Shown in pieces: positions 30,704 through 47,556 of a stretch of DNA of 47,556 bases. Under the pieces are notes generated by a model, which made no database searches, was not told the DNA's origin, and saw only the letters and a list, made by a program, of their open reading frames with translations. This DNA is from Desulfobacterales bacterium (lineage in GTDB: Bacteria > Desulfobacterota > Desulfobacteria > Desulfobacterales > JAHDSC01), in assembly GCA_018432925.1 (NCBI GenBank), contig JAHDSC010000088.1:1-47556 (forward strand), read 5' to 3'. Each line of letters begins with the position of its first letter. Within the stretch, counting starts at the first letter, position 1. The position numbers and the translations under genes were made by a program.

Positions 30704-30970
30704 TTGGTATTCCTTCAGATGTTCCGCTGTTTATCAAACCATAAAATGATCTGGTTTTTAAAAAGATTTCGTTATTTTGATCTTAAAAAATATTTACGCA
30801 CTCGATAGTTAAAATTTTTTGAATTTGTCGGAGGAGGCAGGAAAAATAATTATACCACTATAAAAAAAATGAGGTGGAGTGTCAATTCAAAGGATTTCTG
30901 GATATGCATCCAACCGATTTCAAAATCGTTGAAACAAGGGAATTTAATGAGACTCCACCATCCTTTTTTT

Positions 30971-31032
30971 TGGTGCCTGGGACGAGAATCGAACTCGTAC
31001 AGCCACTATGGGCCGAGGGATTTTAAGTCCCT
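30971..31032 (-). other. attachment site: 3' fragment of tRNA-Leu(UAA)
   Basis: Read on the minus strand, the 62 nt begin at the anticodon stem AGGGA, with loop CTTAAAA (anticodon TAA). The variable arm follows (GGCC/GGCT stem), then the T-arm ACGAG-TTCGATT-CTCGT and the acceptor end CCCAGGCACCA. Upstream of AGGGA the sequence no longer resembles a tRNA: acceptor 5' strand and D-arm are missing. This is the signature left when an element integrates into the 3' half of a tRNA gene; the intact tRNA should be restored at the far (right) end, outside the window. The integrase gene starts 200 nt away. Confidence 0.88.
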
Positions 31033-31230: not shown

Positions 31231-32460
31231 ATGTCAAAATGGAAAACTTTCAAAGATGACGAAGGAAAACCGATAAAAGGTGTTCGGTATTATCTTCACC
31301 ATATTAGAAAACATGGAGTTGCATTTGACAAATATTTTGCAATCCGATTTCAGCGCGACGGAGAACGGATTGAAGAGGGCCTTGGATGGACAAGCGAGGG
31401 CTGGACTCTTGGGAAGGCAATCGCAGAGCTTCACGAATTAAAAAATAATCATAAAATCGGTTCAGGTCCTTCCCGATTAAAGGCAAAACGAGCGGAAAAG
31501 AAAAAGGCCGACTCCGAACGCGAAGAAAAAGCCATGACCGTTTCCGATTTCTGGAAAAACGACTATCTTCACAACCTGGAGACCCGAATAAAAAAATCAT
31601 CGGCCATAAAGGAAAAACAGCATTTTGAAAAACGGATTGAACCGGCTATTGGAAAAAAGCCGCTTATCGAGATTACCACGGTTGACATTGAAAAAATCCG
31701 CGACAAGATGTTTGCGGATGGATTTTCTTCCCGGACCATTCAATACATGATCGGGACTTTTTTCAGAATCTGGAAACACGCGGCCAGGCGGAAGCTTGTC
31801 AAGGCCGGTGACAATCCGGCGGCTGGTGTTTCTATCAGACAGGCCAATAACGCCAGGACCCGTATTATTACACCGGAAGAGCTTTCCGCCATATTAAATA
31901 AGCTGGAAAAATCATCCCGCGAAGCATACCGGATCACCCTGTTTTGCGCTTATACCGGATGCCGGTTTTCCGAAGCGGCAAGGCTGAGATGGGAAAATAT
32001 TGATTTTGAAAGGGGATCGGCTTTCTTCCCGGAAACTAAAAACACAGAATCCCGCGAGATTTTTTTGAGCGAACCAGTTATCAGGATGCTGAAGGAAATA
32101 CCCGATCAGAACGCGGGGAGCCATATTTTTTTAACAAAAACAGACAAACCGTATATTGAACCACCAAGGCCATTCAAAACAGCCGTAGACGGCTTAAAAC
32201 TGAACGAAGGACACGAGCCAAGGGATTGTATAAGTTTTCATTCGTTGCGACACACAGCGGCCACCTACGCGGCCAGGGACGGCGCCACGCTTCGAGACCT
32301 ACAAGATATGTTTGGCTGGAAAGTCCCCGCTATGGTGTTCAGATACGCCAAAGGCGACAGGGCCGCACAGAAACGAGCAGCCGGACGATTGGCCGACGCG
32401 CTCACACCAAGGCCGAAAGGCGCTAAGGTTATTAGGCTTACACATCGACGGAATAACTAA
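31231..32460 (+). CDS. int: tyrosine site-specific integrase
   Basis: A 409-residue phage-type integrase. After an arm-binding N-terminus and a SAM-like core-binding domain (about 103-195), the catalytic domain has R245 (TGCRFSEA), K270 (ETKNTESRE), H337 and R340 (FHSLRH), W363 in place of the second His, and the nucleophile Y372 (FRYAKGD). All essential residues are intact, so it should be active. GGGGAGAGG lies just upstream of the ATG. Its position next to the tRNA-Leu fragment identifies it as the enzyme that inserted this element. Confidence 0.94.
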   Translation: MSKWKTFKDDEGKPIKGVRYYLHHIRKHGVAFDKYFAIRFQRDGERIEEGLGWTSEGWTLGKAIAELHELKNNHKIGSGPSRLKAKRAEKKKADSEREEKAMTVSDFWKNDYLHNLETRIKKSSAIKEKQHFEKRIEPAIGKKPLIEITTVDIEKIRDKMFADGFSSRTIQYMIGTFFRIWKHAARRKLVKAGDNPAAGVSIRQANNARTRIITPEELSAILNKLEKSSREAYRITLFCAYTGCRFSEAARLRWENIDFERGSAFFPETKNTESREIFLSEPVIRMLKEIPDQNAGSHIFLTKTDKPYIEPPRPFKTAVDGLKLNEGHEPRDCISFHSLRHTAATYAARDGATLRDLQDMFGWKVPAMVFRYAKGDRAAQKRAAGRLADALTPRPKGAKVIRLTHRRNN

Positions 32461-33494: not shown

Positions 33495-33737
33495 ATGAAA
33501 TTGTGTAATGCCTTAGAAAAACTTCAAGAAACCCTGCCCCCGGTTTTCGCCGGGAAAAGCCTGGATCAATTCACCGGGAACGGCTACCGATGGCGGACCC
33601 TTCAGAACGAAAAATCCAAAGGCGAAACACCGGACGATATATTCTTGCGGTCCGGGACCCGGAAGCTTCTCATTGTTCGGGACGCGTTCCTCGCCTATTG
33701 GCAGTCAAAGCTTTCAAGCAGCGGGGACCGTTCTTAA
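33495..33737 (+). CDS. small hypothetical protein ahead of the primase
   Basis: An 80-residue protein with an aromatic/basic centre (FTGNGYRWRTLQNEKSKGE) and DDIFLRSGTRKLLIVRDAFL. It may be a compact DNA-binding domain, but I do not recognise it. The ATG at 33495 has GAAGGGAGA upstream. Its stop overlaps the primase start (TAATG), so the two are translationally coupled and the protein probably assists replication. Confidence 0.6.
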   Translation: MKLCNALEKLQETLPPVFAGKSLDQFTGNGYRWRTLQNEKSKGETPDDIFLRSGTRKLLIVRDAFLAYWQSKLSSSGDRS

Positions 33738-35809
33738 TGATCGAGCAATTCCGAGAAGCAATGGCGGCGGCTAATATTGAATGTGCCGTTGAGATTGTTC
33801 CGGACGGCAAGTTGCACCGCTTCAAACCGAACGGCGGCCGGAACCCGGACGGGTGGTATTGTTTACACGGCGACGGAATTCCAGCGGGAAGCTTCGGAAA
33901 TTGGAAAACCGGACAAAGTTTTACCTGGTGTCAGAAAAAGCAATCCGAGCTTTCACCGGAAGAGCGGAAGGCCTACCAGCAGCGGATTGAACAACAGAAG
34001 CAAGCGCGGGAAGCTGAAGAAAAGCGGACCCACGAGCAAGCAGCCGAAAAAGCCAAATGGATATGGGATCACTCAACACCGGCGACCGAGGATCACCCGT
34101 ATTTGCAGAAAAAGCAGGTCAAACCATACGGGTTGCGGATTGCCAAGGACGGACGGCTTATCATTCCGGCACGGGACGCAAGCGGGACGATCCGAACCTT
34201 ACAGTTTATTTCAGGCGACGGAACGAAACGCTTTCTCCCTGGTGGACAAAAGGCCGGTCACTTCTTTGAGATCCCAGGCGACACCGACACCGTTTATATT
34301 GGCGAAGGCTTCGCAACTATGGCGACCGTTCACATGGCTACAGGCGGCCATACGATAATTGCCTTCGACGCGGGAAACTTGGTGTCAGTCAGTCAGACGA
34401 TCCGGAGGAAATACCCAAAAGCTGAAATCGTCATTTGCGCGGATAATGACGCATGGACTGAAGGCAATCCCGGAATCACCAAGGCAAGACAGGCGGCCAG
34501 AGCAATTAGAGCGCAAGTTGTTGTACCGAAATTTAAAGACGTTTCGAGTAAACCGAGCGATTTTAACGACCTACACATACTCGAAGGAATCGAAACCGTG
34601 AAACAACAGTTGACACAGGCAGCAGTAGACCCGGACCCGGAGCCGGAAGTTGAACTTATGATTGAACGAGCCGAATCAAAAAATCTATTTCCGTATCAGG
34701 CGATGACCGGAGCAGCCGGGAGTTTTGCCGATGCTTACACTCATTACCTTGAAACCCCGCAACACTTTCTTTTCATGGCTTATCTGACCTGCCTTGGTTC
34801 GATTATCAGCGACCGGGTGACCTTGGACTCCGAACTTCAGCCGCAAACCCGTCTCTTCACGGTTTTGTTGGGTGACAGCGCTGATGTCCGCAAATCTACG
34901 AGCATATCAAAAGCGGTTTCTCTTTTCAAAGAAACCATCGAAGGATTTAAGATTTCATGGGGGATAAATTCAGCCGAAGGGCTTCAAAAACGGCTGAAAA
35001 AAAACGAAACGGAAGGCAGCAGTAATCTTCTTCTTATATTCGATGAGTTCAAATCCTTCGTCTCAAAATGCCGGATAGATACTTCGGCGTTGTTGCCGTG
35101 TGTTAACACTCTGTTTGAATCCAACTGTTACGAAAGCCATACGAAAAACAAATCCGTCACCTTGGAAGATGCCCACTTGAGCCTTTTAGCAGCCTCGACG
35201 ACCCAAACCTATGAAAGGATATGGGATCGATCATTTACGGATATCGGATTCAATAACAGGTTGTTTCTAGTCCCTGGGTCTGGAGAGCGGAAGTTTTCAA
35301 TGCCGGAAAAGATGCCAAACGAAGATCTTGAGCAATTGAAACGAGAACTTGCTAGAGTTTTGGAACACACCGCGAAACACCCCCTACTGAAGCTTACACC
35401 AGAAGCCAAAAGGCTCTACCATGAATGGTATATGACCCTGGAGGCTTCAGTCCACTCCAAACGCCTCGACACCTACGCGGCGCGCTTGATGATCTTATTG
35501 GCAGTCAATAACCTGAAAACTGAAGTTGACACTGAGACCGTTTCCGGCGTTATCGCGCTTTGCGATTGGCAGCTTGAAGTACGGAAACAATATGATCCAA
35601 TCGATTCCGATAACGTAGTCGCAATTATCGAGGAAAAAATCCGAAGGACACTTCGAAAAAGACCGCAAACAGAACGCGAATTGAAACAAAATACAAATGC
35701 CCATCGTGACGGACTATGGCTTTTCGGACAGGCCCTAAAAAATCTGAGCAATGCCCATGAAATCAAATGGCAGAAATCGGACAAAAAATGGAACCTCGAA
35801 ACTGTTTAA
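33737..35809 (+). CDS. primase-helicase fusion (TOPRIM plus DUF3987)
   Basis: A 690-residue replication protein. The start at 33737 shares one base with the preceding stop, and the domain begins there; a longer frame upstream is not needed. Residues 105-300 form a TOPRIM primase with E190 (VYIGEGFAT) and D236/D238 (ICADNDAW). Residues 310-690 resemble DUF3987, a helicase-like ATPase. Walker B is clear (LLLIFDEF, 431-438), but Walker A reads GDSADVRKST (379-388), lacking the usual second glycine and with Arg before Lys. Such fusions are typical of satellites, P4-like islands and ICEs that replicate autonomously. Confidence 0.85.
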   Translation: MIEQFREAMAAANIECAVEIVPDGKLHRFKPNGGRNPDGWYCLHGDGIPAGSFGNWKTGQSFTWCQKKQSELSPEERKAYQQRIEQQKQAREAEEKRTHEQAAEKAKWIWDHSTPATEDHPYLQKKQVKPYGLRIAKDGRLIIPARDASGTIRTLQFISGDGTKRFLPGGQKAGHFFEIPGDTDTVYIGEGFATMATVHMATGGHTIIAFDAGNLVSVSQTIRRKYPKAEIVICADNDAWTEGNPGITKARQAARAIRAQVVVPKFKDVSSKPSDFNDLHILEGIETVKQQLTQAAVDPDPEPEVELMIERAESKNLFPYQAMTGAAGSFADAYTHYLETPQHFLFMAYLTCLGSIISDRVTLDSELQPQTRLFTVLLGDSADVRKSTSISKAVSLFKETIEGFKISWGINSAEGLQKRLKKNETEGSSNLLLIFDEFKSFVSKCRIDTSALLPCVNTLFESNCYESHTKNKSVTLEDAHLSLLAASTTQTYERIWDRSFTDIGFNNRLFLVPGSGERKFSMPEKMPNEDLEQLKRELARVLEHTAKHPLLKLTPEAKRLYHEWYMTLEASVHSKRLDTYAARLMILLAVNNLKTEVDTETVSGVIALCDWQLEVRKQYDPIDSDNVVAIIEEKIRRTLRKRPQTERELKQNTNAHRDGLWLFGQALKNLSNAHEIKWQKSDKKWNLETV

Positions 35810-36068: not shown

Positions 36069-37430
36069 ATGAAGATTCAAATTGACCGAAAGCTTAAAAT
36101 TTTCGACGCACCGGAAAGTCTGAAGCGAACTATTGCCGACCGGCTGACCTTTCAGAATCCAAAATTCCTTGAAGCCGACCGGATGGGCTATTGGACTGGG
36201 AACATTCCGCGAGTTCTGAAATTCTATGAATTCGCACCTGATGGCGGTCTTGTCGTTCCTCGCGGATTTATCGGGCAGCTTCTCAAGATCGCCTCTTCCG
36301 CTGGTATCCGACCGGAAATCATTGACCGGCGGCGAACCTTGCCGAATGTGAATTTCACATTTGCCGGAACCCTGAAACCTTTCCAAGAGGGAGCCGTCAA
36401 TATCATGCTTTCAAAGGACTTTGGGACCTTGAGCGCACCGACCGGATCAGGAAAGACGGTCATGGCGCTGAAAATCATAGCAGAGCGGAAGCAGCCGACA
36501 CTTATCATCGTTCACACGAAAGAGCTTTTGAATCAATGGATCGACCGGATTGAAACCTTCCTGGGGATTCCACGGAATGAGATTGGGGTTATCGGCGGCG
36601 GCAAAAAGAAGATCGGGGAAAAGGTCACGATTGCCTTGGTTCAATCGCTTTATAAATGCGCGGATGAAGTTGCCAAGCATATCGGCTTTCTGATTGTCGA
36701 TGAATGTCATCGGACACCGAGCCGGACCTTCACGGAGGCGGTATCCGCATTCGATTGTAAATTTATGCTGGGCCTGAGCGCGACTCCTTGGCGAAGAGAT
36801 GGGTTGTCAAGGCTTATTTATTGGTATCTTGGCGATGTTCAACACGAGGTGGACAAAGACCACTTGGTTGAAAACGGCGATATCCTTCGGGCTGAAGTCA
36901 TTACCAGGGATACCGACTTCCGGCCATACAACGACCCGGTTACTGAATATTCAAAGATGCTTTCGGAATTGACCCAGGACAATGAGAGAAACGCCATGAT
37001 TTGTTACGACGTTTCAGAGGTAGCGAAGGATAATGAAAGCGGGATATGCCTTGTATTGTCGGATCGAAAAGTACATTGCCAACGGCTACAATATATATTG
37101 AAACAGTGCCTTGACACCGATAGTACCCTTCTGACCGGGGATCTACCGACGAAGCAGAGACAAGAGACCGTTCAAAGGCTGAATGATGGTCAAATCAAGG
37201 TGTTGATTGCCACCGGGCAACTGATTGGAGAGGGGTTTGATTGCAAGTCGTTATCAAATCTTTTTTTTGCCACTCCCGTAAGATTCAGCGGAAGAGTCCT
37301 TCAGTATCTTGGGAGAGTCCTCAGGCCAGCACCGGGGAAGGAAAAAGCAAAGGTCTATGATTATGTTGACGTAAATGTTGGGCCGCTGGTTGCATCGGCA
37401 CGGGCAAGGCAAAGGGTTTACACCGAATGA
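36069..37430 (+). CDS. SF2 DNA helicase, XPB/Rad25-like
   Basis: A 453-residue DEAD/H-type helicase. After a 100-residue N-terminal domain come Walker A SAPTGSGKT (122-130), motif Ia IIVHTKELLNQW, DECH box (211-214) and SATP motif III (237-240). The second RecA domain has VLIATGQLIGEGFDC and GRVLQYLGRVLRP (motif VI). Phage T4 UvsW-like and XPB-like helicases look similar. The likely role is strand displacement or fork remodelling during element replication. It is preceded by the GTAGTCA inverted repeats and followed by the first cos-like site. Confidence 0.87.
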   Translation: MKIQIDRKLKIFDAPESLKRTIADRLTFQNPKFLEADRMGYWTGNIPRVLKFYEFAPDGGLVVPRGFIGQLLKIASSAGIRPEIIDRRRTLPNVNFTFAGTLKPFQEGAVNIMLSKDFGTLSAPTGSGKTVMALKIIAERKQPTLIIVHTKELLNQWIDRIETFLGIPRNEIGVIGGGKKKIGEKVTIALVQSLYKCADEVAKHIGFLIVDECHRTPSRTFTEAVSAFDCKFMLGLSATPWRRDGLSRLIYWYLGDVQHEVDKDHLVENGDILRAEVITRDTDFRPYNDPVTEYSKMLSELTQDNERNAMICYDVSEVAKDNESGICLVLSDRKVHCQRLQYILKQCLDTDSTLLTGDLPTKQRQETVQRLNDGQIKVLIATGQLIGEGFDCKSLSNLFFATPVRFSGRVLQYLGRVLRPAPGKEKAKVYDYVDVNVGPLVASARARQRVYTE

Positions 37431-37686: not shown

Positions 37687-37944
37687 TTGGGAAAACAGAA
37701 AATTCAATATGTGGCGGGGGTTGTCTTGAAAAAACAAATCGATGCGATAGCGGAGAGTCCAGCGGTTGCGCGGGTTTATGAGACGGCGGCGTGTGCCGAT
37801 CTTGCCGGAGAACTGGATTCGTGGCCGGTTTTTCTGGAGAAAATTTTCCCGAAGCCGTCTTTTGATGAATTTCAGAAAGCAAAACTCAAAGTTCATTCAA
37901 AAATCGCTGGGTTGATCGGGGAGCATGAAGCCAAAACAACCTAA
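37687..37944 (+). CDS. small hypothetical protein
   Basis: An 85-residue, probably all-helical protein starting with TTG, supported by AGGAGG 6 nt upstream. Segments are GVVLKKQIDAIAESPAVARV and FDEFQKAKLKVHSKIAGLI. Family unknown. Its 3' end overlaps the start of the next gene by 20 nt, so the two are coupled. It is the first gene after cos-like site 1, where cos phages carry the small terminase, but no terminase similarity is evident. Confidence 0.6.
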   Translation: MGKQKIQYVAGVVLKKQIDAIAESPAVARVYETAACADLAGELDSWPVFLEKIFPKPSFDEFQKAKLKVHSKIAGLIGEHEAKTT

Positions 37945-38134
37945 ACGATTGCTTAGAATCGATGAAGCGATGCAGCTTCTATCATGCTCCCGATCAACGA
38001 TCTACCGACTAATTGGCGATCGAGAGATTGAAGCCTTGAAAATCCGCAATTCTCTAAGAATTACAGCCGAAAGCATCCGGGCATTTCAGGAACGAAAAAT
38101 CTTTGAATTTGCTGAAAGCGAGGCGCTTCTTTAA
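37925..38134 (+). CDS. helix-turn-helix protein (HTH_17/AlpA/Xis type)
   Basis: A 69-residue protein that is essentially one MerR-like helix-turn-helix: LLRIDEAMQLLSCSRSTIYR, then LIGDREIEALKIRNSLRI, then a short helix. Such proteins act as excisionases, AlpA activators or, when longer, the DNA-binding domain of small terminases such as Nu1. GGGGAG precedes the ATG. Position just after the cos-like site makes an excision or packaging-recognition role worth testing. Confidence 0.8.
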   Translation: MKPKQPKRLLRIDEAMQLLSCSRSTIYRLIGDREIEALKIRNSLRITAESIRAFQERKIFEFAESEALL

Positions 38135-38691: not shown

Positions 38692-39297
38692 ATGCATCCT
38701 GTCCTGGAAGAATTTGCAGAAAAGATTAAGAACGAAATTCTTGAGACCGTTTCCGATAGGCTCAAAGTCCATGCAGCGGAACGGGAACAGATCGAGGCCG
38801 ATATCAAAACGAACAAACAGAATTTTGAAAAATTCCATAAGGAGATTGTCTCGTTTGAAATGCAACTAAAAGAACTTGAAGTGCAGCGAACCGCCGCGCT
38901 CGCAGCCGGAAAATCACCTTTGGCGGTAACAAAAAAAATCCGGGAAACGAGAGAGGCCATTGCGGACTTAAGCGAAATGGTCGAGTCGCTCGAAACAGAA
39001 ATATTGCCCGCCTTGCAGCAAGCGAAAAATGATAAAAGTTATTCAATGGGGTTAGTTATTGAAAACGCCGCCTTGGCGGTAAAGGAGCGGTATGTCTCTC
39101 GCATGAATGAACTGATTCAAAAAGAAATCGAGCCTTTTCTTCTGGGATGGAACGATGCTCTTGGTAAGGCGTATGGTGCATATTGGGCAACGGTGAGAGA
39201 TTTCCCCGTGTTACGGAGCATCTACATTAAAAGTCGAGTTGTCAAGGATCATATTGGCGGCTTTGGGCAATTAGAACCATCAATATACCAAAAATAA
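38692..39297 (+). CDS. coiled-coil hypothetical protein
   Basis: A 201-residue protein dominated by a coiled coil (residues 20-110, with heptads such as QIEADIKTNKQNFEKFHKEI). A globular end with FLLGWNDALGKAYGAYWATV and SIYIKSRVVKDHIGG follows. AAGGAGG precedes the ATG by 9 nt. I do not recognise the family. Its position ahead of the tail chaperone and tape measure would suit a scaffold-like or capsid-redirecting protein, but that is speculation. Confidence 0.6.
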   Translation: MHPVLEEFAEKIKNEILETVSDRLKVHAAEREQIEADIKTNKQNFEKFHKEIVSFEMQLKELEVQRTAALAAGKSPLAVTKKIRETREAIADLSEMVESLETEILPALQQAKNDKSYSMGLVIENAALAVKERYVSRMNELIQKEIEPFLLGWNDALGKAYGAYWATVRDFPVLRSIYIKSRVVKDHIGGFGQLEPSIYQK

Positions 39298-39810: not shown

Positions 39811-40179
39811 ATGGCGAAATTACAGACTGAACATATACTCACTTTGACCGCGACCGGAACCATTGAAAAGCGGGAGCCGGTTACAGCAGATGAGGGGAAG
39901 ATTGTACTACGGGAGCCGACCGACAAGGAATGGAATACTTATGACGGTTCCCGGTTCGAGTTCACCAAGAAAGGAAAAGTCCGCAAAGGCGACCAATCGG
40001 CGGCAAGGTGCGAATTGTTCGATCAGATCGTGACCGATGTTCAGAACATCGAGGACGGCACGGGAGCAATTACCCTATCCGATCTCGCGCGTATCCCTGC
40101 CCGGTACAAACAGCGGGCAATTTTCATATGCTTCGAGGACGAGATATCCGATGACGATGAGGACTCGGAAAAAAACTGA
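39811..40179 (+). CDS. tail assembly chaperone, short (G-like) form
   Basis: A 122-residue product of the zero frame, with AAGGAGA upstream. It has a beta-rich N-terminus (LTLTATGTIEKREP), a helical centre (RCELFDQIVTDVQNIEDG, LARIPARYKQRAIF) and a very acidic tail ending SDDDEDSEKN. Size, position before the tape measure, and the frameshift signal at its last codons identify it by analogy with lambda gpG. It would coat the tape measure during tail assembly. No major tail protein gene precedes it, which is unusual. Confidence 0.75.
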   Translation: MAKLQTEHILTLTATGTIEKREPVTADEGKIVLREPTDKEWNTYDGSRFEFTKKGKVRKGDQSAARCELFDQIVTDVQNIEDGTGAITLSDLARIPARYKQRAIFICFEDEISDDDEDSEKN

Positions 40180-40557: not shown

Positions 40558-42501
40558 ATGGCTACATTGCTATCAGATACCGGCGTTGCGTATGTAATAT
40601 CGGCAAAAGATATCAGCCAGGAGGCAGTGAACAGCGCGATTGCCGGGACTAAGAAGATCCGCAACTCGACTGAGCGCATGGCGAAGCAGACCGAACGGGA
40701 TATGGCGGCATTCGGTCGAAGTGTGAAAAGTGCTTTGACAACCATTATGGCTTTGGCGGGGGCGGCCGGATTCGGGGCGATGATCAAGCAATCGATGACT
40801 ACCATCGATTTATTAGCCAAAACATCAGATAAACTTGGTCTAACTACCGAGCATTTAGCAGGGTTGCGTCATGCGGCTGAATTATCCGGTGTGGCTACAA
40901 ATACGATGGACATGGCATTGCAGCGGATGACCCGGAGGCTGGCAGAAGCAGCGCAAGGAACCGGAGAAGCGCAAAACGCAATCAAGGAGCTTGGGCTGGA
41001 TGCTCAAGCATTAGCGGCTATGGCTCCAGACCGTGCGTTATATGAGATTGCCGATGCCATGCAGAAAGTTGAAAACCAGGGCGACCGGGTGCGATTGGCG
41101 TTCAAGCTGTTCGACTCCGAGGGCGTTGCGATGGTCAACATGCTCAAGGACGGTTCGGCGGGCCTTCGGGCAGCACAGCAAGAAGCAGAAAAGCTTGGGC
41201 TGGCAATTTCGCGTGTTGATGCGAAGCGGGTAGAGGAAGCAAACGATGCTTTTACAAAAATGAAATCCGCTGTGTCCGGCCTTTCAAACGAACTTACGAT
41301 CAAACTAGCTCCCGCAATCGAACAGGTTGCTACTACTATGACAAACTGGTTGACCGGTTCGGAATCAGAGTTGACCAATAAAATCAATCGAATTGCTGAA
41401 CTCAGACAGCAGATAATCGAGACGGAATATCAGTTGCGCAGTTTCAGCGGAGAATCGATTTTTACTGGCAGGGTTGAGTTTTACTCTGAGGTCGAAAAAC
41501 GATTATGGTCTTTGCGGATGGAAGCCAAGCAACTCGGAGCGGAGATTGGTTCAATGGGTGTTTCCTGGGCTCAGTCCGCACGGGATCTGAACGCAGCAGA
41601 AAGCGCAATGGCAGGGGCGACTACACAAACGCAGGTATTTACTTTCGAGACGGAAAACCTTGGCTCTACGATCCCAGGTGTTGTAATGGCATTGGATGAT
41701 TACTTTGCGGCCATAGATGCTTACGGGGAAGGCACTGAGATTGCTACGGCTCGCACAAAAGCGTTCACTTTCGAGACTCAGAATCTTGGCGATACGCTTC
41801 CCGGTGTTGTAATGGCGCTCGAAAGTTATTTCGGTGCGCTGGATGCAGCGGAACAAAACCTCGCGTCAAGCACCGTAATCAATATGGCGGAAATCGTTGC
41901 ATCAGCGGAGCAGGCGCTATTGAATCAGACGGCAGAGATGGAAGCCAAACGGCTGAAAATCATCCAAAAGGCCGGCCGTGAGGAAAAGGCGATTCGCCGT
42001 GATGTGCTGGACAATTCGATTATATTGTTAACAACATTGGGGCAAGAGAGCGAAGCGGCGGCAGTATTGGCGATTGCCATATCAACAGCCGCGGATATGG
42101 TCAGAGCTTATCAAGCAACCATAGCAGCCTCCACTTTAGCTTTCGCATCGCAGCTTGTCCCTGGTGATCCGACATCGTTGGCAAGAGCGACCGCGGCGGC
42201 AGCAGCCGTAAAAGCATGGGGCCTTGTAAATGTCGGTTTAATCGGGGCGGTTGGTGCGCTTCGTATCGGGCAGACGCTTTCCGGGACCGGCTCCGAGGGA
42301 GTAAACTATAGCTATGATTACAATGCCGGGTATTCGAGCAGTTCTACTACCGGAAGCAGCGCATCTGAGGAATCGGAAGAAACAACTTCTCGCGCCCTTG
42401 TCGTGAATATCCACAACTACGGGTATATCGGCGCGGACCCGGATAGTCTTGCCCGGACGCTTGTGCCGGCCATAAGAAAAGCAGAACGAGACGGAGTGTA
42501 A
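40558..42501 (+). CDS. phage tail tape measure protein
   Basis: A 647-residue, Ala-rich helical protein. The N-terminus has tape-measure features (AAFGRSVKSALTTIMALAGA, LAKTSDKLGLTTEHLAGLRH, ALQRMTRRLAEAA). Hydrophobic segments follow near 490-580, and the tail is rich in Ser/Gly/Thr. A 42-residue unit is duplicated in tandem at about 361-430: FTFETENLGSTIPGVVMAL, then FTFETQNLGDTLPGVVMALE, 126 nt apart in DNA. By the usual rule of about 0.15 nm per residue it would set a tail near 100 nm. It follows the chaperone, but the next gene is a replication protein instead of a tail-tip gene. Confidence 0.85.
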   Translation: MATLLSDTGVAYVISAKDISQEAVNSAIAGTKKIRNSTERMAKQTERDMAAFGRSVKSALTTIMALAGAAGFGAMIKQSMTTIDLLAKTSDKLGLTTEHLAGLRHAAELSGVATNTMDMALQRMTRRLAEAAQGTGEAQNAIKELGLDAQALAAMAPDRALYEIADAMQKVENQGDRVRLAFKLFDSEGVAMVNMLKDGSAGLRAAQQEAEKLGLAISRVDAKRVEEANDAFTKMKSAVSGLSNELTIKLAPAIEQVATTMTNWLTGSESELTNKINRIAELRQQIIETEYQLRSFSGESIFTGRVEFYSEVEKRLWSLRMEAKQLGAEIGSMGVSWAQSARDLNAAESAMAGATTQTQVFTFETENLGSTIPGVVMALDDYFAAIDAYGEGTEIATARTKAFTFETQNLGDTLPGVVMALESYFGALDAAEQNLASSTVINMAEIVASAEQALLNQTAEMEAKRLKIIQKAGREEKAIRRDVLDNSIILLTTLGQESEAAAVLAIAISTAADMVRAYQATIAASTLAFASQLVPGDPTSLARATAAAAAVKAWGLVNVGLIGAVGALRIGQTLSGTGSEGVNYSYDYNAGYSSSSTTGSSASEESEETTSRALVVNIHNYGYIGADPDSLARTLVPAIRKAERDGV

Positions 42502-42589: not shown

Positions 42590-42638
42590 TCTCCCCCTAA
42601 AACTCAAATGCTTGGACGGGAGAAAGTAGGACGGGAGA

Positions 42639-43361
42639 TTGTATCAATTCACAGACGAGTTTAGTCATACACACAGATTTCACTTCAGAAAAAAATACAT
42701 CAAAAATTTCAACTGGGCGAGGCTGTCAACGGCTGCAGAGACTATCTATCCGGTATTAGCCTGTTATGCAAAAAAAAGTGGGATTGCTTTTCCGAGTGAA
42801 GAAACCATATCCGACCTTGCAGGGATCACGGCGAAGGTTGTCAGAAAAGGAATTAAAGACCTTGATGGCTTCCCCGGTTTCAGTTGGAGACCTTACACCA
42901 CTAAAACAGGCCGACGGAGTAAAAAATTCTATTTCAAGCTTCCCGAATCTACCGAAACAGGGGAGACCTTCCCATTTTTCCAATATGTACTTGAATCGGG
43001 GTCATGGAGTGAACTCTTGCCGACGGCGCGAGCATTATATCCGGTAATGCGGTCTTTCGGGTTTTGGGATATCGAAAATTACATGGAGATTGAAGAGGAC
43101 GAATATGAAGCAAGCGAATTTGATGAAATTTACCAAAACAGAAAATGGGATTTTTGCGAGGCCGAGAAAATAGTCATGGCGGAATATGCCGGAATAGACC
43201 GAACATCCATTGACGCAGCCTTAAAAAGTTTGAAACATTGTTGCCTTGTAGAACCGCTTCCAGACCGTCCAGGATGGAAGGTTTTTTTAAAATCCAACGG
43301 CATGATTTTCAAGAGAGATTTTCTTAATAAAAAGCGCGTGTCGAAAAAGTACCGATCATAG
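42639..43361 (+). CDS. Rep-like protein with two winged-helix domains
   Basis: A 240-residue protein built of two similar halves. Residues 29-75 have LSTAAETIYPVLACYA and SEETISDLAGITAKVVRKGI. Residues 126-203 have LLPTARALYPVMRSFG and AEKIVMAEYAGIDRTSIDAA. Tandem winged helices are the plan of iteron-binding plasmid initiators, and the gene runs straight into four iterons; its last codons lie in the first one. The start must be the TTG at 42639, because a TAG lies four codons upstream; AGGA is 7 nt before it. I infer a replication initiator. A phage transcription regulator is the alternative. Confidence 0.7.
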   Translation: MYQFTDEFSHTHRFHFRKKYIKNFNWARLSTAAETIYPVLACYAKKSGIAFPSEETISDLAGITAKVVRKGIKDLDGFPGFSWRPYTTKTGRRSKKFYFKLPESTETGETFPFFQYVLESGSWSELLPTARALYPVMRSFGFWDIENYMEIEEDEYEASEFDEIYQNRKWDFCEAEKIVMAEYAGIDRTSIDAALKSLKHCCLVEPLPDRPGWKVFLKSNGMIFKRDFLNKKRVSKKYRS

Positions 43362-43467
43362 GTGGGAAAAAGTACCGGTGGCGTGTCGAAAAAGTACCGG
43401 TGGCGTGTCGAAAAAGTACCGACTAATAAGGTATTTGAATAAGGTATTTGAATAAGGTTTGAATAAG
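43338..43467 (+). repeat. iterons and 13-mers: candidate replication origin
   Basis: GTGTCGAAAAAGTACCG occurs at 43338, 43383 and 43405, with a variant GTGGGAAAAAGTACCG at 43362, period about 22 bp. Directly after come GTATTTGAATAAG at 43431 and 43444 and GTTTGAATAAG at 43457, period 13 bp and AT-rich, like the unwinding 13-mers of oriC and iteron plasmids. Confidence 0.78.
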
Positions 43468-43548
43468 GGCGCATTGCGATAACTCGCAATCCGCTGGTGT
43501 TTCTTTTCTCTTTTTTTCTTTATCTGAAATTTACCAAACACAATCAGC

Positions 43549-45484: not shown

Positions 45485-45524
45485 AAAAGGCCCGTGGCGG
45501 TTTCGGCTGTTACGGGCCTTTTTG
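45485..45524 (+). terminator. rho-independent terminator
   Basis: AAAAGGCCCGT (45485-45495) pairs with ACGGGCCTTTT (45512-45522), an 11-bp stem followed by T's. Confidence 0.85.
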
Positions 45525-45526
45525 TT

Positions 45527-45721
45527 CGCCTTTACCGTGAAACCCATCGGACGTTTGAGGAATACTGCAAGGAGAGGTGGGGAATGAGCCGCATTCATGC
45601 TCATCGGTTGATTGAGGGGGCGAAGGTAACGGAAATGTTACCAATTGGTAACAAACCCGCTACCGAATCCCAAGCCCGCCCCCTGACCAAGCTCCCACCT
45701 ACGGAACAGGTGAATAAATGA
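45527..45721 (+). pseudogene. remnant of a DNA-binding protein gene
   Basis: The frame reads RLYRETHRTFEEYCKERWGM, then SRIHAHRLIEGAKV and ESQARPLTKLPPTEQVNK. This stretch is familiar from larger phage and plasmid proteins, where it is an internal segment. Here the 5' side runs straight into a terminator hairpin (the only start is a GTG inside its left arm) and a stop follows soon after LPPTEQ. Both ends of the gene seem to be lost. Translation is doubtful. Confidence 0.5.
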
Positions 45722-45828: not shown

Positions 45829-46131
45829 ATGGAAGTTCAGTTTCGGACAAGCAAATTAAAAAAGCTATATCAGGATGAACGCGCAGCGAGAAAAGCCTAT
45901 GGTAAGGAAGTTGCGAGGCGTTACATTGAGCGAATCAATATCATCAAAAATACCCGTTATATTGAGGAATTGCAGATTTTACCTGGATTACGATGCCATG
46001 AATTGAAGGGTAACCGCCAAGGGAAATGGTCCATAAAGCTGACCGGTTTTTATCGGCTGATTTTCACCCTAACTGGCGATCGATTAGAAATCGTTTGCAT
46101 TGAGGAGGTGAGCAAACATTATGATGACTAA
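45829..46131 (+). CDS. higB: HigB/RelE-family toxin
   Basis: A 100-residue RelE-superfamily mRNA interferase. QFRTSKLKKLYQDERAAR opens it, ARRYIERINIIKNTRYIEEL follows, and the core ends with PGLRCHELKGNRQGKWSIKL, then GFYRLIF and a C-terminal VCIEEVSKHYD. The toxin precedes its antitoxin, the reverse order typical of hig loci, and overlaps it by 11 nt. Cleavage of ribosome-bound mRNA is the family function. Confidence 0.88.
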   Translation: MEVQFRTSKLKKLYQDERAARKAYGKEVARRYIERINIIKNTRYIEELQILPGLRCHELKGNRQGKWSIKLTGFYRLIFTLTGDRLEIVCIEEVSKHYDD

Positions 46132-47218
46132 CGTAAGAGAGATCCATTCTAATCTGGCCATTCCTCCAGGGGAATACCTGGAGGAGGTGCTTGACGAATT
46201 GGGCATGACCAAGGATGAACTGTCGAGGAGGATGGACCGACCAGCTGCTAAATTGAGTGCGATTTTTAAGGGTGATAAAGCCATCACCTCCGATACGGCA
46301 CTACGGCTGGAAAAAGTCTTAGGGGTTCCAGCTCATATATGGACAGGGCTGGAAGCTGAGTATCGTCTAACTTTAGCCAGACAGGAGGACCTGCTGACAG
46401 AGGAGAGATTGAAAGAGGAAGTGGGTTTGGCTTCAGAGTACCCATATAAAGACCTGGTTGATGCTGGAGAGATTAAGAATTACACCCGAAAGGTGGATAG
46501 GGTTCAGGCCTTACAGGAATTTTTTGGGGTTTGGTCGCTAACACAAGTGCCTCATTTAAAGCGTTACGACGCCACTCGCTGGCGAATTGGAAAATCAAGC
46601 AAAGGTGAGCGAAAGCCAGAAGCGGTAGCAGCTTGGTTGCGAATGGGCGAACGCAGGGCTCAACGGTTGCAATGCGCTTCATTTAATGAGAAACACCTGC
46701 GGGCAACCCTTGGCGAATTGCGAGCGATGACTCTTAGCTCACCCGAGGATTTTTATGAACCACTCCATCAAAAACTTACAGACTGCGGAGTGGCTTTAAT
46801 TATCTGCCCCCATTTTACCAAAACAAAAACGCATGGCGCCACATTCTGGTTGAGCCGCGAAAAGGCGGTGGTGATGATTACGATCAGGGGCAGTTGGGCG
46901 GACATCTTTTGGTTTAGTTTGTTTCATGAGATTGGGCATATCCTTCTTTTTCATAATCGGCAGGGCGTAATTTTAGAAAATGATGGTGAAGACAAACAAG
47001 AGAAGGAGGCCGACGATTTTGCCTCTTCTATACTTCTGCCATTAAAAGAATATAAGCCTTTTGTCCAAGAGGGAATGTTTTATCCCGAAAATATTCAAGG
47101 TTTTGCCAGAAAAATTGAGATAGATCCGGGCATTGTGGTTGGACGTTTGCAGCATGATGGTAAACTGCCTCAGAATTGGGGGAATAAATTGCGTTCTCGC
47201 TATGAGTGGGAGAATTGA
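46121..47218 (+). CDS. higA: HigA antitoxin fused to an ImmA/IrrE metalloprotease domain
   Basis: A 365-residue protein. Residues 12-75 are the HigA helix-turn-helix (IPPGEYLEEVLDELGMTKDE, then LSRRMDRP). From about 215 onward an ImmA/IrrE-type peptidase follows, with the zinc motif HEIGH (269-273) and the downstream acidic ligand in KEADDFA (296-300). AGGAGGTGA precedes the ATG. In this architecture the protease may regulate antitoxin turnover or cleave a phage or host repressor. It may stabilise the element or act in defence against other phages. Confidence 0.88.
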   Translation: MMTNVREIHSNLAIPPGEYLEEVLDELGMTKDELSRRMDRPAAKLSAIFKGDKAITSDTALRLEKVLGVPAHIWTGLEAEYRLTLARQEDLLTEERLKEEVGLASEYPYKDLVDAGEIKNYTRKVDRVQALQEFFGVWSLTQVPHLKRYDATRWRIGKSSKGERKPEAVAAWLRMGERRAQRLQCASFNEKHLRATLGELRAMTLSSPEDFYEPLHQKLTDCGVALIICPHFTKTKTHGATFWLSREKAVVMITIRGSWADIFWFSLFHEIGHILLFHNRQGVILENDGEDKQEKEADDFASSILLPLKEYKPFVQEGMFYPENIQGFARKIEIDPGIVVGRLQHDGKLPQNWGNKLRSRYEWEN

Positions 47219-47403: not shown

Positions 47404-47497
47404 GGAAGCAGATCGTTCAATATACGCCAAATGGCTAAGCCGTTTTTGGCCAATAACGGCGAAACAGTTTGAATTTACGAAGATTCGTTGCAGAAAG

Positions 47498-47518
47498 GCG
47501 GGATTGTCCCGCTTTTTT
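47498..47518 (+). terminator. rho-independent terminator at the window edge
   Basis: GCGGGA (47498-47503) pairs with TCCCGC (47507-47512) around a 3-nt loop, followed by TTTTTT. Confidence 0.75.
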
Positions 47519-47556
47519 GCTTTTGGCGGAAAAAATCATCAGGCAGGTAAGAACTG

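Follow-up and report, generated by a model that had tools for sequence, protein, structure and literature searches.

What is a replicon of plasmid-like anatomy doing inside an element that is integrated at a tRNA gene? The question arises from a 47,556-nucleotide contig of a Desulfobacterales bacterium (JAHDSC010000088.1, assembly GCA_018432925.1; this whole stretch is hereafter called the window), where a sequence-only reading had described a complete iteron replicon at 42639-43467, consisting of a gene for a Rep-like protein with an internally duplicated winged helix, four 22-bp iterons and three AT-rich 13-bp repeats. We find that this arrangement is real, its open reading frame (ORF), 22-bp array and 13-mers being as described apart from small corrections, and that it is very probably the replication module of a phage-satellite-like element integrated at a tRNA-Leu gene, in which the initiator would bind its own iterons and open the adjoining AT-rich repeats (Table 1).

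The repeats provide the first line of evidence. Tandem Repeats Finder (TRF) places the iteron array at 43336-43421 (period 22, 3.9 copies), with two iterons identical across 22 bp and a 17-bp core, GTGTCGAAAAAGTACCG, present exactly at 43338, 43383 and 43405. This core was found nowhere else in the window at up to 3 mismatches, nor elsewhere in the 3.38-Mb genome at up to 2 mismatches, and three matches were reached in 0 of 100 shuffles. In a scan of the whole window for periods of 19 to 24, the array scored 34, as against 9.5 for the best non-overlapping region and 11 for a scanning window starting inside the array; no other iteron set was found in the window, including upstream of the initiator gene. 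In the AT-rich array that follows (TRF: 3.5 copies, 93% matches), the 13-mer AATAAGGTATTTG is exact at 43425-43437 and 43438-43450, whereas the third has only 11 bp (43451-43461), with AATAAGGG after it and a partial copy at 43462-43468; AT content reaches 0.75 across the 40 bases from 43421. Both arrays of the sequence-only reading are therefore recovered, with the corrections that the second iteron is degenerate and the third 13-mer two bases short. With tandem iterons in the range of about 17-22 bp next to an AT-rich unwinding element that contains 13-mers, the sequence has the anatomy of Rep_3-type origins, and the unwinding element of RK2 also contains 13-mers (PMC4980987). The iteron core was not found as a text string in papers. 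At the other end of the gene, a 15-bp direct repeat (GGACGGGAGAAAGTA / GGACGGGAGATTGTA) lies at 42614-42643, immediately 5′ of the start codon, and no sigma-70 promoter was detected in a scan of the surroundings of the gene.

The second line of evidence comes from the protein. Comparison of its N-terminal with its C-terminal half by hhalign gave a probability of 97.6% and a score of 67.6, against scores of ≤14 and probabilities of ≤0.6% in column-shuffled controls, confirming at the level of sequence profiles that the two halves are related, i.e., that the proposed internal duplication of a winged helix exists. The first half matches HTH_36 (PF13730; E=1.5e-7, 31.6 bits vs a Pfam cut-off of 25), a family also above cut-off in 7 of the 10 relatives scanned. 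Weak PHROG matches of the initiator fall in replication-initiation families, and weak profile matches of its relatives in O-like families. Rep_3 (PF01051), by comparison, did not match the initiator at E≤1 in the Pfam scan or the whole genome even at E≤10, the initiator profile and a three-member RepE alignment reached an hhalign probability of 0.5% (i.e., no detectable kinship), and phmmer and profile searches of solved-structure sequences returned no usable match.

An AlphaFold model based on an alignment of nine relatives (pLDDT, the predicted local distance difference test, 85.6; pTM, the predicted template-modelling score, 0.84) contains two winged helices; an earlier AlphaFold 2 model from five sequences (pLDDT 57.9) was poor and was set aside. 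In a structural second look with the model, the 43 top-ranking rows belonged without exception to RepE54, Pi or Rep-DNA complexes (Z from 7.8 to 9.7 with about 172-181 residues aligned, root-mean-square deviation (rmsd) about 4), headed by 8ac8_C (Z 9.7, rmsd 4.0, 175 residues) and including the Pi structure 2nra_C (Z 9.0, 180 residues), while other folds reached Z ≤7.7 over 66-85 residues, in single domains only. Best matches in the viral library were helix-turn-helix (HTH) proteins and a "Replication initiator protein" from metagenomic phages. The prediction is thus one of two tandem winged helices in the RepE arrangement, matched over the full length; an unrelated fold, which would have counted against the sequence-only reading, was not found. 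Since this structural match stands beside null profile comparisons, the predicted fold agrees with that of Rep_3 initiators while sequence kinship is undetectable.

Table 1 Features of the replication module and of the integrated element that carries it (window positions)
Feature	Position	Strand	Basis
Initiator (Rep) gene, 240 amino acids, TTG start	42639..43361	+	ORF and translation; HTH_36; weak PHROG matches
First winged helix (predicted), residues about 10-104	42666..42950	+	AlphaFold 2 model, pLDDT 85.6; half-vs-half hhalign
Second winged helix (predicted), residues about 107-222	42957..43304	+	AlphaFold 2 model; half-vs-half hhalign
Iteron 1, overlapping last codons of initiator gene	43336..43357	+	Exact core; TRF
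Iteron 2, left side degenerate, core GAAAAAGTACCGGTGGC at 43366	43359..43380	+	Sequence; TRF
Iteron 3	43381..43402	+	Exact core
Iteron 4	43403..43424	+	Exact core
AT-rich 13-bp repeats, candidate unwinding element	43425..43468	+	TRF; AT content
Attachment core: 3′ fragment of tRNA-Leu(UAA), element left end	30967..31032	-	Match to contig C161
Tyrosine integrase, 409 amino acids, frame intact	31231..32460	+	PF00589, E=6e-26
Toprim primase / DUF3987 helicase-like protein, candidate replication partner	33590..35809	+	Family matches
SF2 helicase	36069..37430	+	Family matches
HTH_17/AlpA-like protein, candidate excisionase	37925..38134	+	Family match
Tail tape-measure protein, directly upstream of initiator gene	40558..42501	+	phrog_9483, E=3e-72
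HigB-like toxin and HTH/ImmA-like (HigA) partner	45829..47218	+	Family matches
Overlap with contig C161, leading to right attachment site	47472..47550	.	78/79 bp identical

The same layout recurs in relatives of the gene, which profile and pattern searches located in Desulfobacterota-type genomes, one Omnitrophota bin and one viral contig (a Spirochaetota match spans 24 residues only; G, L and C numbers below are our own labels). No match was obtained with single-protein queries against viral and genome contigs, with an exact pattern of two spaced iterons in viral contigs or with tblastn against named phages and plasmids (window protein and one relative each, the plasmid set comprising 72,556 records); the nine-sequence alignment was too diverse for a pattern scan, and a second alignment found no further relatives in viral contigs. 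Counting the window, 20 distinct gene copies lie on mobile or unresolved contigs, and 16 of them have their own ~20-24-bp repeat signal at the 3′ end of the gene (shuffle p<0.03). Because a 12-mer count anchored at the stop codon missed the in-frame arrays of G124 and G715, the count for these two only was anchored where the conserved domain ends. Iteron sequences vary among relatives with the layout constant, a similar arrangement of gene and repeats being kept at 44-51% identity. Several relatives have in common an A/T-rich stretch ending in TACC(G) (ATGCACAAAAACTACC in G124, CATAGCAAAAACTACCG in G324 and GATTTTTACCGG in G346), and 11-16-bp AT-rich repeats such as TTAAGTAGGTAT often come after their arrays.

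The elements that carry these relatives indicate what kind of module this is. G324 holds a complete 9,669-bp element in tRNA-Arg, with direct attachment repeats identical at 64/64 bp, an integrase (called by reading and by blastp to the window integrase), an HK97-type capsid and a terminase small subunit; G347 holds a complete 6,681-bp element in tRNA-Leu(CAA), with direct attachment repeats, an integrase and the initiator. A terminase small subunit lies just behind the repeat array of L057, L025 has terL-, capsid- and portal-like ORFs with an integrase (by reading), and G128 carries two related copies at distant sites of one chromosome (97% over the initiator region). One relative belongs to a cultured strain, Desulforhopalus singaporensis DSM 12130 (L053). 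There, type I-E cas-operon-like genes (by reading; L053:11695-20285) follow a unit of tRNA-Leu, integrase and initiator and might be element cargo; no second attachment site was found within the stretch examined. Separately, a small protein is common to the window (45494-45721) and the G324 satellite (L048:3882-4409; 49% over 67 amino acids), with no family match.

The window element itself is bounded by a tRNA gene. Its attachment core is identical at 65/66 bp (98%) to C161:3882-3947, a stretch overlapping an intact tRNA-Leu(UAA), which bears out the earlier claim of tRNA integration even though ARAGORN found no tRNA in the window. At the right end of the window, 79 bp match the start of C161 as read from its tRNA side, so that the element would measure about 16.8 kb with its right end on C161; judged by sequence, the join is strong though not closed. 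A second element of the same genome, in tRNA-Met on contig C169 (L047:10510-18892), carries this right-end sequence too, at a distance of ~150 bp from its own tRNA; it is smaller, resembles the window element over that end (91% over 161 bp) and lacks the initiator. Coiled-coil proteins recur in elements of this group (window 38692-39297; L047:17233-17961; L015:8406-8954; L049:13801-14574), with no blastp similarity to each other. Among the window-element proteins scanned, no capsid, terminase or portal genes were found, and we read the element as satellite-like or as a reduced prophage.

This composition bears on the possibility that the module is genuine and yet dead, the window containing what is left of a decayed prophage, with initiator and origin no longer in use, which would be compatible with our view of the module. 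Phage structure is represented only by the tape-measure protein and a possible tail chaperone near its gene (39811-40179), and the third 13-mer and second iteron are imperfect. On the other hand, the frames of the 240-residue initiator and the 409-residue integrase are intact. Two of the iterons agree at every one of 22 bp, the attachment core matches at 98% across its 66 bp, and the layout persists in similar form in relatives of 44-51% identity, so that we consider decay rather unlikely. A tape-measure gene in an element with no detected head genes is itself an oddity, since it would be unusual for a satellite to bring its own tape measure.

The sequence-only reading had called this arrangement plasmid architecture, and that label is not supported as it stands: the protein falls outside the Rep_3 sequence family, and its repeats follow the gene, in contrast to the origin iterons of F, which precede repE. 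A related proposal is that a true plasmid replicon was captured by the integrative element and is kept as a stable episome, which the RepE/Pi-like fold, the iteron and 13-mer anatomy and the nearby HigBA-like pair would suit. We nevertheless judge capture highly improbable given the lack of matches in the plasmid records and to the Rep_3 profile, the residence of relatives in elements integrated at tRNA genes, of which some encode a terminase or capsid, and the absence of a partition gene among the proteins scanned. Because relatives lie on phage- or satellite-like elements, some of them with terminase or capsid, the modules of phage-inducible chromosomal islands (PICIs) and of lambda O are the closer context, and the window element has the appearance of a phage satellite or mini-prophage rather than a plasmid.

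Several observations weigh against assigning the module to replication of a satellite-like element. Near the origin there is no exact DnaA box, only sites with one mismatch, such boxes being common though not universal in Rep_3-type origins. A Foldseek search of the PDB on its own gave the model no match with E under 0.001, and structural similarity does not in itself prove function. The most remote relatives (G428, G484, G230 and G260) match the profile only partially, arrays are weak or partial in G001, G230, L053 and L057 (p 0.06-0.20), and the repeat signal of G002 comes mainly from its AT repeats. The 79-bp join has one mismatch and diverging last bases, which leaves a small chance that a middle piece is missing. 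Finally, L054, L055 and L056 have no repeat array though they keep the gene, an outcome that the sequence-only reading had named as counting against it. All three, however, share the chromosomal order mfd - HAD (haloacid dehalogenase) hydrolase - gene, with no integrase (gene names by reading), the homologues lying at L054:3117-3854, L055:10001-10732 and L056:10001-10732, and they are probably domesticated initiators.

Such copies must serve some role other than at an origin, which lends colour to a further explanation, namely that the protein is an autoregulator acting as a repressor on the repeats behind its gene (controlling downstream transcription, copy number or incompatibility), with replication starting elsewhere in the element. 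Winged helices are frequent in repressors, and F, our control here, has a second iteron set downstream of repE besides the upstream one, compared with a downstream set only in the window. That downstream set of F (incC) is regulatory. An autoregulator would nonetheless have no need of the AT-rich 11-16-bp repeats that adjoin the iterons in many relatives, the window offers no other iteron set, and the weak PHROG matches point to replication initiators and O-like proteins. Moreover, the ORFs scanned in minimal elements such as that of G347 (6.7 kb) included no replication gene besides the initiator. We therefore regard pure autoregulation as very unlikely and retain a replication initiator with its own origin.

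Four characterized systems come closest to this one. RepE of F and Pi of R6K have the same two-winged-helix arrangement as the model (Z 8-9.7, about 172-181 residues) and likewise use tandem ~22-bp repeats beside AT-rich repeats, differing in the Rep_3 profile match that is lacking here and in the RepE-alignment comparison (0.5%). PICIs combine a specific attachment site, an integrase, an excision function and an initiator whose origin, containing iterons and an AT-rich zone, lies behind it, and some also carry terS (PMC6092414); the window element shares the attachment site, the integrase and, in anatomy only, the order of replication module and then origin, and terS and capsid genes occur in its relatives. 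Satellites with the origin placed behind the initiator gene are hence already known, although the E. coli PICI origins depicted have an iteron set on each side of the AT-rich region (PMC6092414), as opposed to one set on one side here. The initiators of Staphylococcus aureus pathogenicity islands, better characterized among PICIs, have helicase activity (PMC7145576), whereas this one consists of winged helices only. Lambda O is a phage initiator with iterons and an AT-rich region inside its own gene (PMC7466680), recalling the weak O-like profile matches of our relatives, but the present origin starts in the last codons and runs past the stop. RepA (RepA_N) of the Vibrio satellite PLE (phage-inducible chromosomal island-like element) is an HTH initiator with no predicted helicase or primase that binds satellite iterons (PMC7145576); RepA_N-type structures (e.g., 4pta, 4pql) match the model over shorter stretches only in Foldseek, and the top 50 rows of the structural second look include none of them. 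As we read it, the module combines a RepE-like fold and iterons with another sequence family, a satellite context and an origin behind the gene.

By analogy with RepE, Pi, RK2 and lambda (PMC4980987, PMC7466680), we infer the following course of events. The integrase would first excise the element, after which the initiator would bind the four iterons beginning in its own last codons, using both winged helices in the manner of RepE and Pi. The initiator-bound array may then melt the adjacent AT-rich 13-mers and keep one strand open, onto which a replicative helicase, either that of the host or the primase-helicase of the element (33590-35809), would be loaded, leading to replication of the element. 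Episomal replication after excision, as originally suggested, is plausible, and induced replication in the style of satellites fits equally well.

No paper on this initiator family was found in the open-access literature, most subscription journals lying outside its coverage, and the phage and plasmid collections searched yielded nothing similar to the members used as queries. Tentatively, we suggest that an unnamed family with the RepE/Pi fold, which has no sequence relation to Rep_3 and whose duplication can still be seen, could be a common replication module of phage satellites integrated at tRNA genes in Desulfobacterota. Its members would have diversified iterons of their own immediately after the gene, and some would have been domesticated beside mfd; a duplicated phage HTH_36 winged helix might then be the source of the RepE fold, the present family being either an independent case or a view of the ancestor. 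The analysis predicts origins to the base for a set of integrated elements and links plasmid-type iteron initiators to phage-satellite replication in the absence of detectable sequence homology. Because the iterons differ while the layout stays, the family gives natural pairs for the study of co-change between winged-helix initiators and their iterons, and the relative in cultured D. singaporensis DSM 12130 makes the idea testable.
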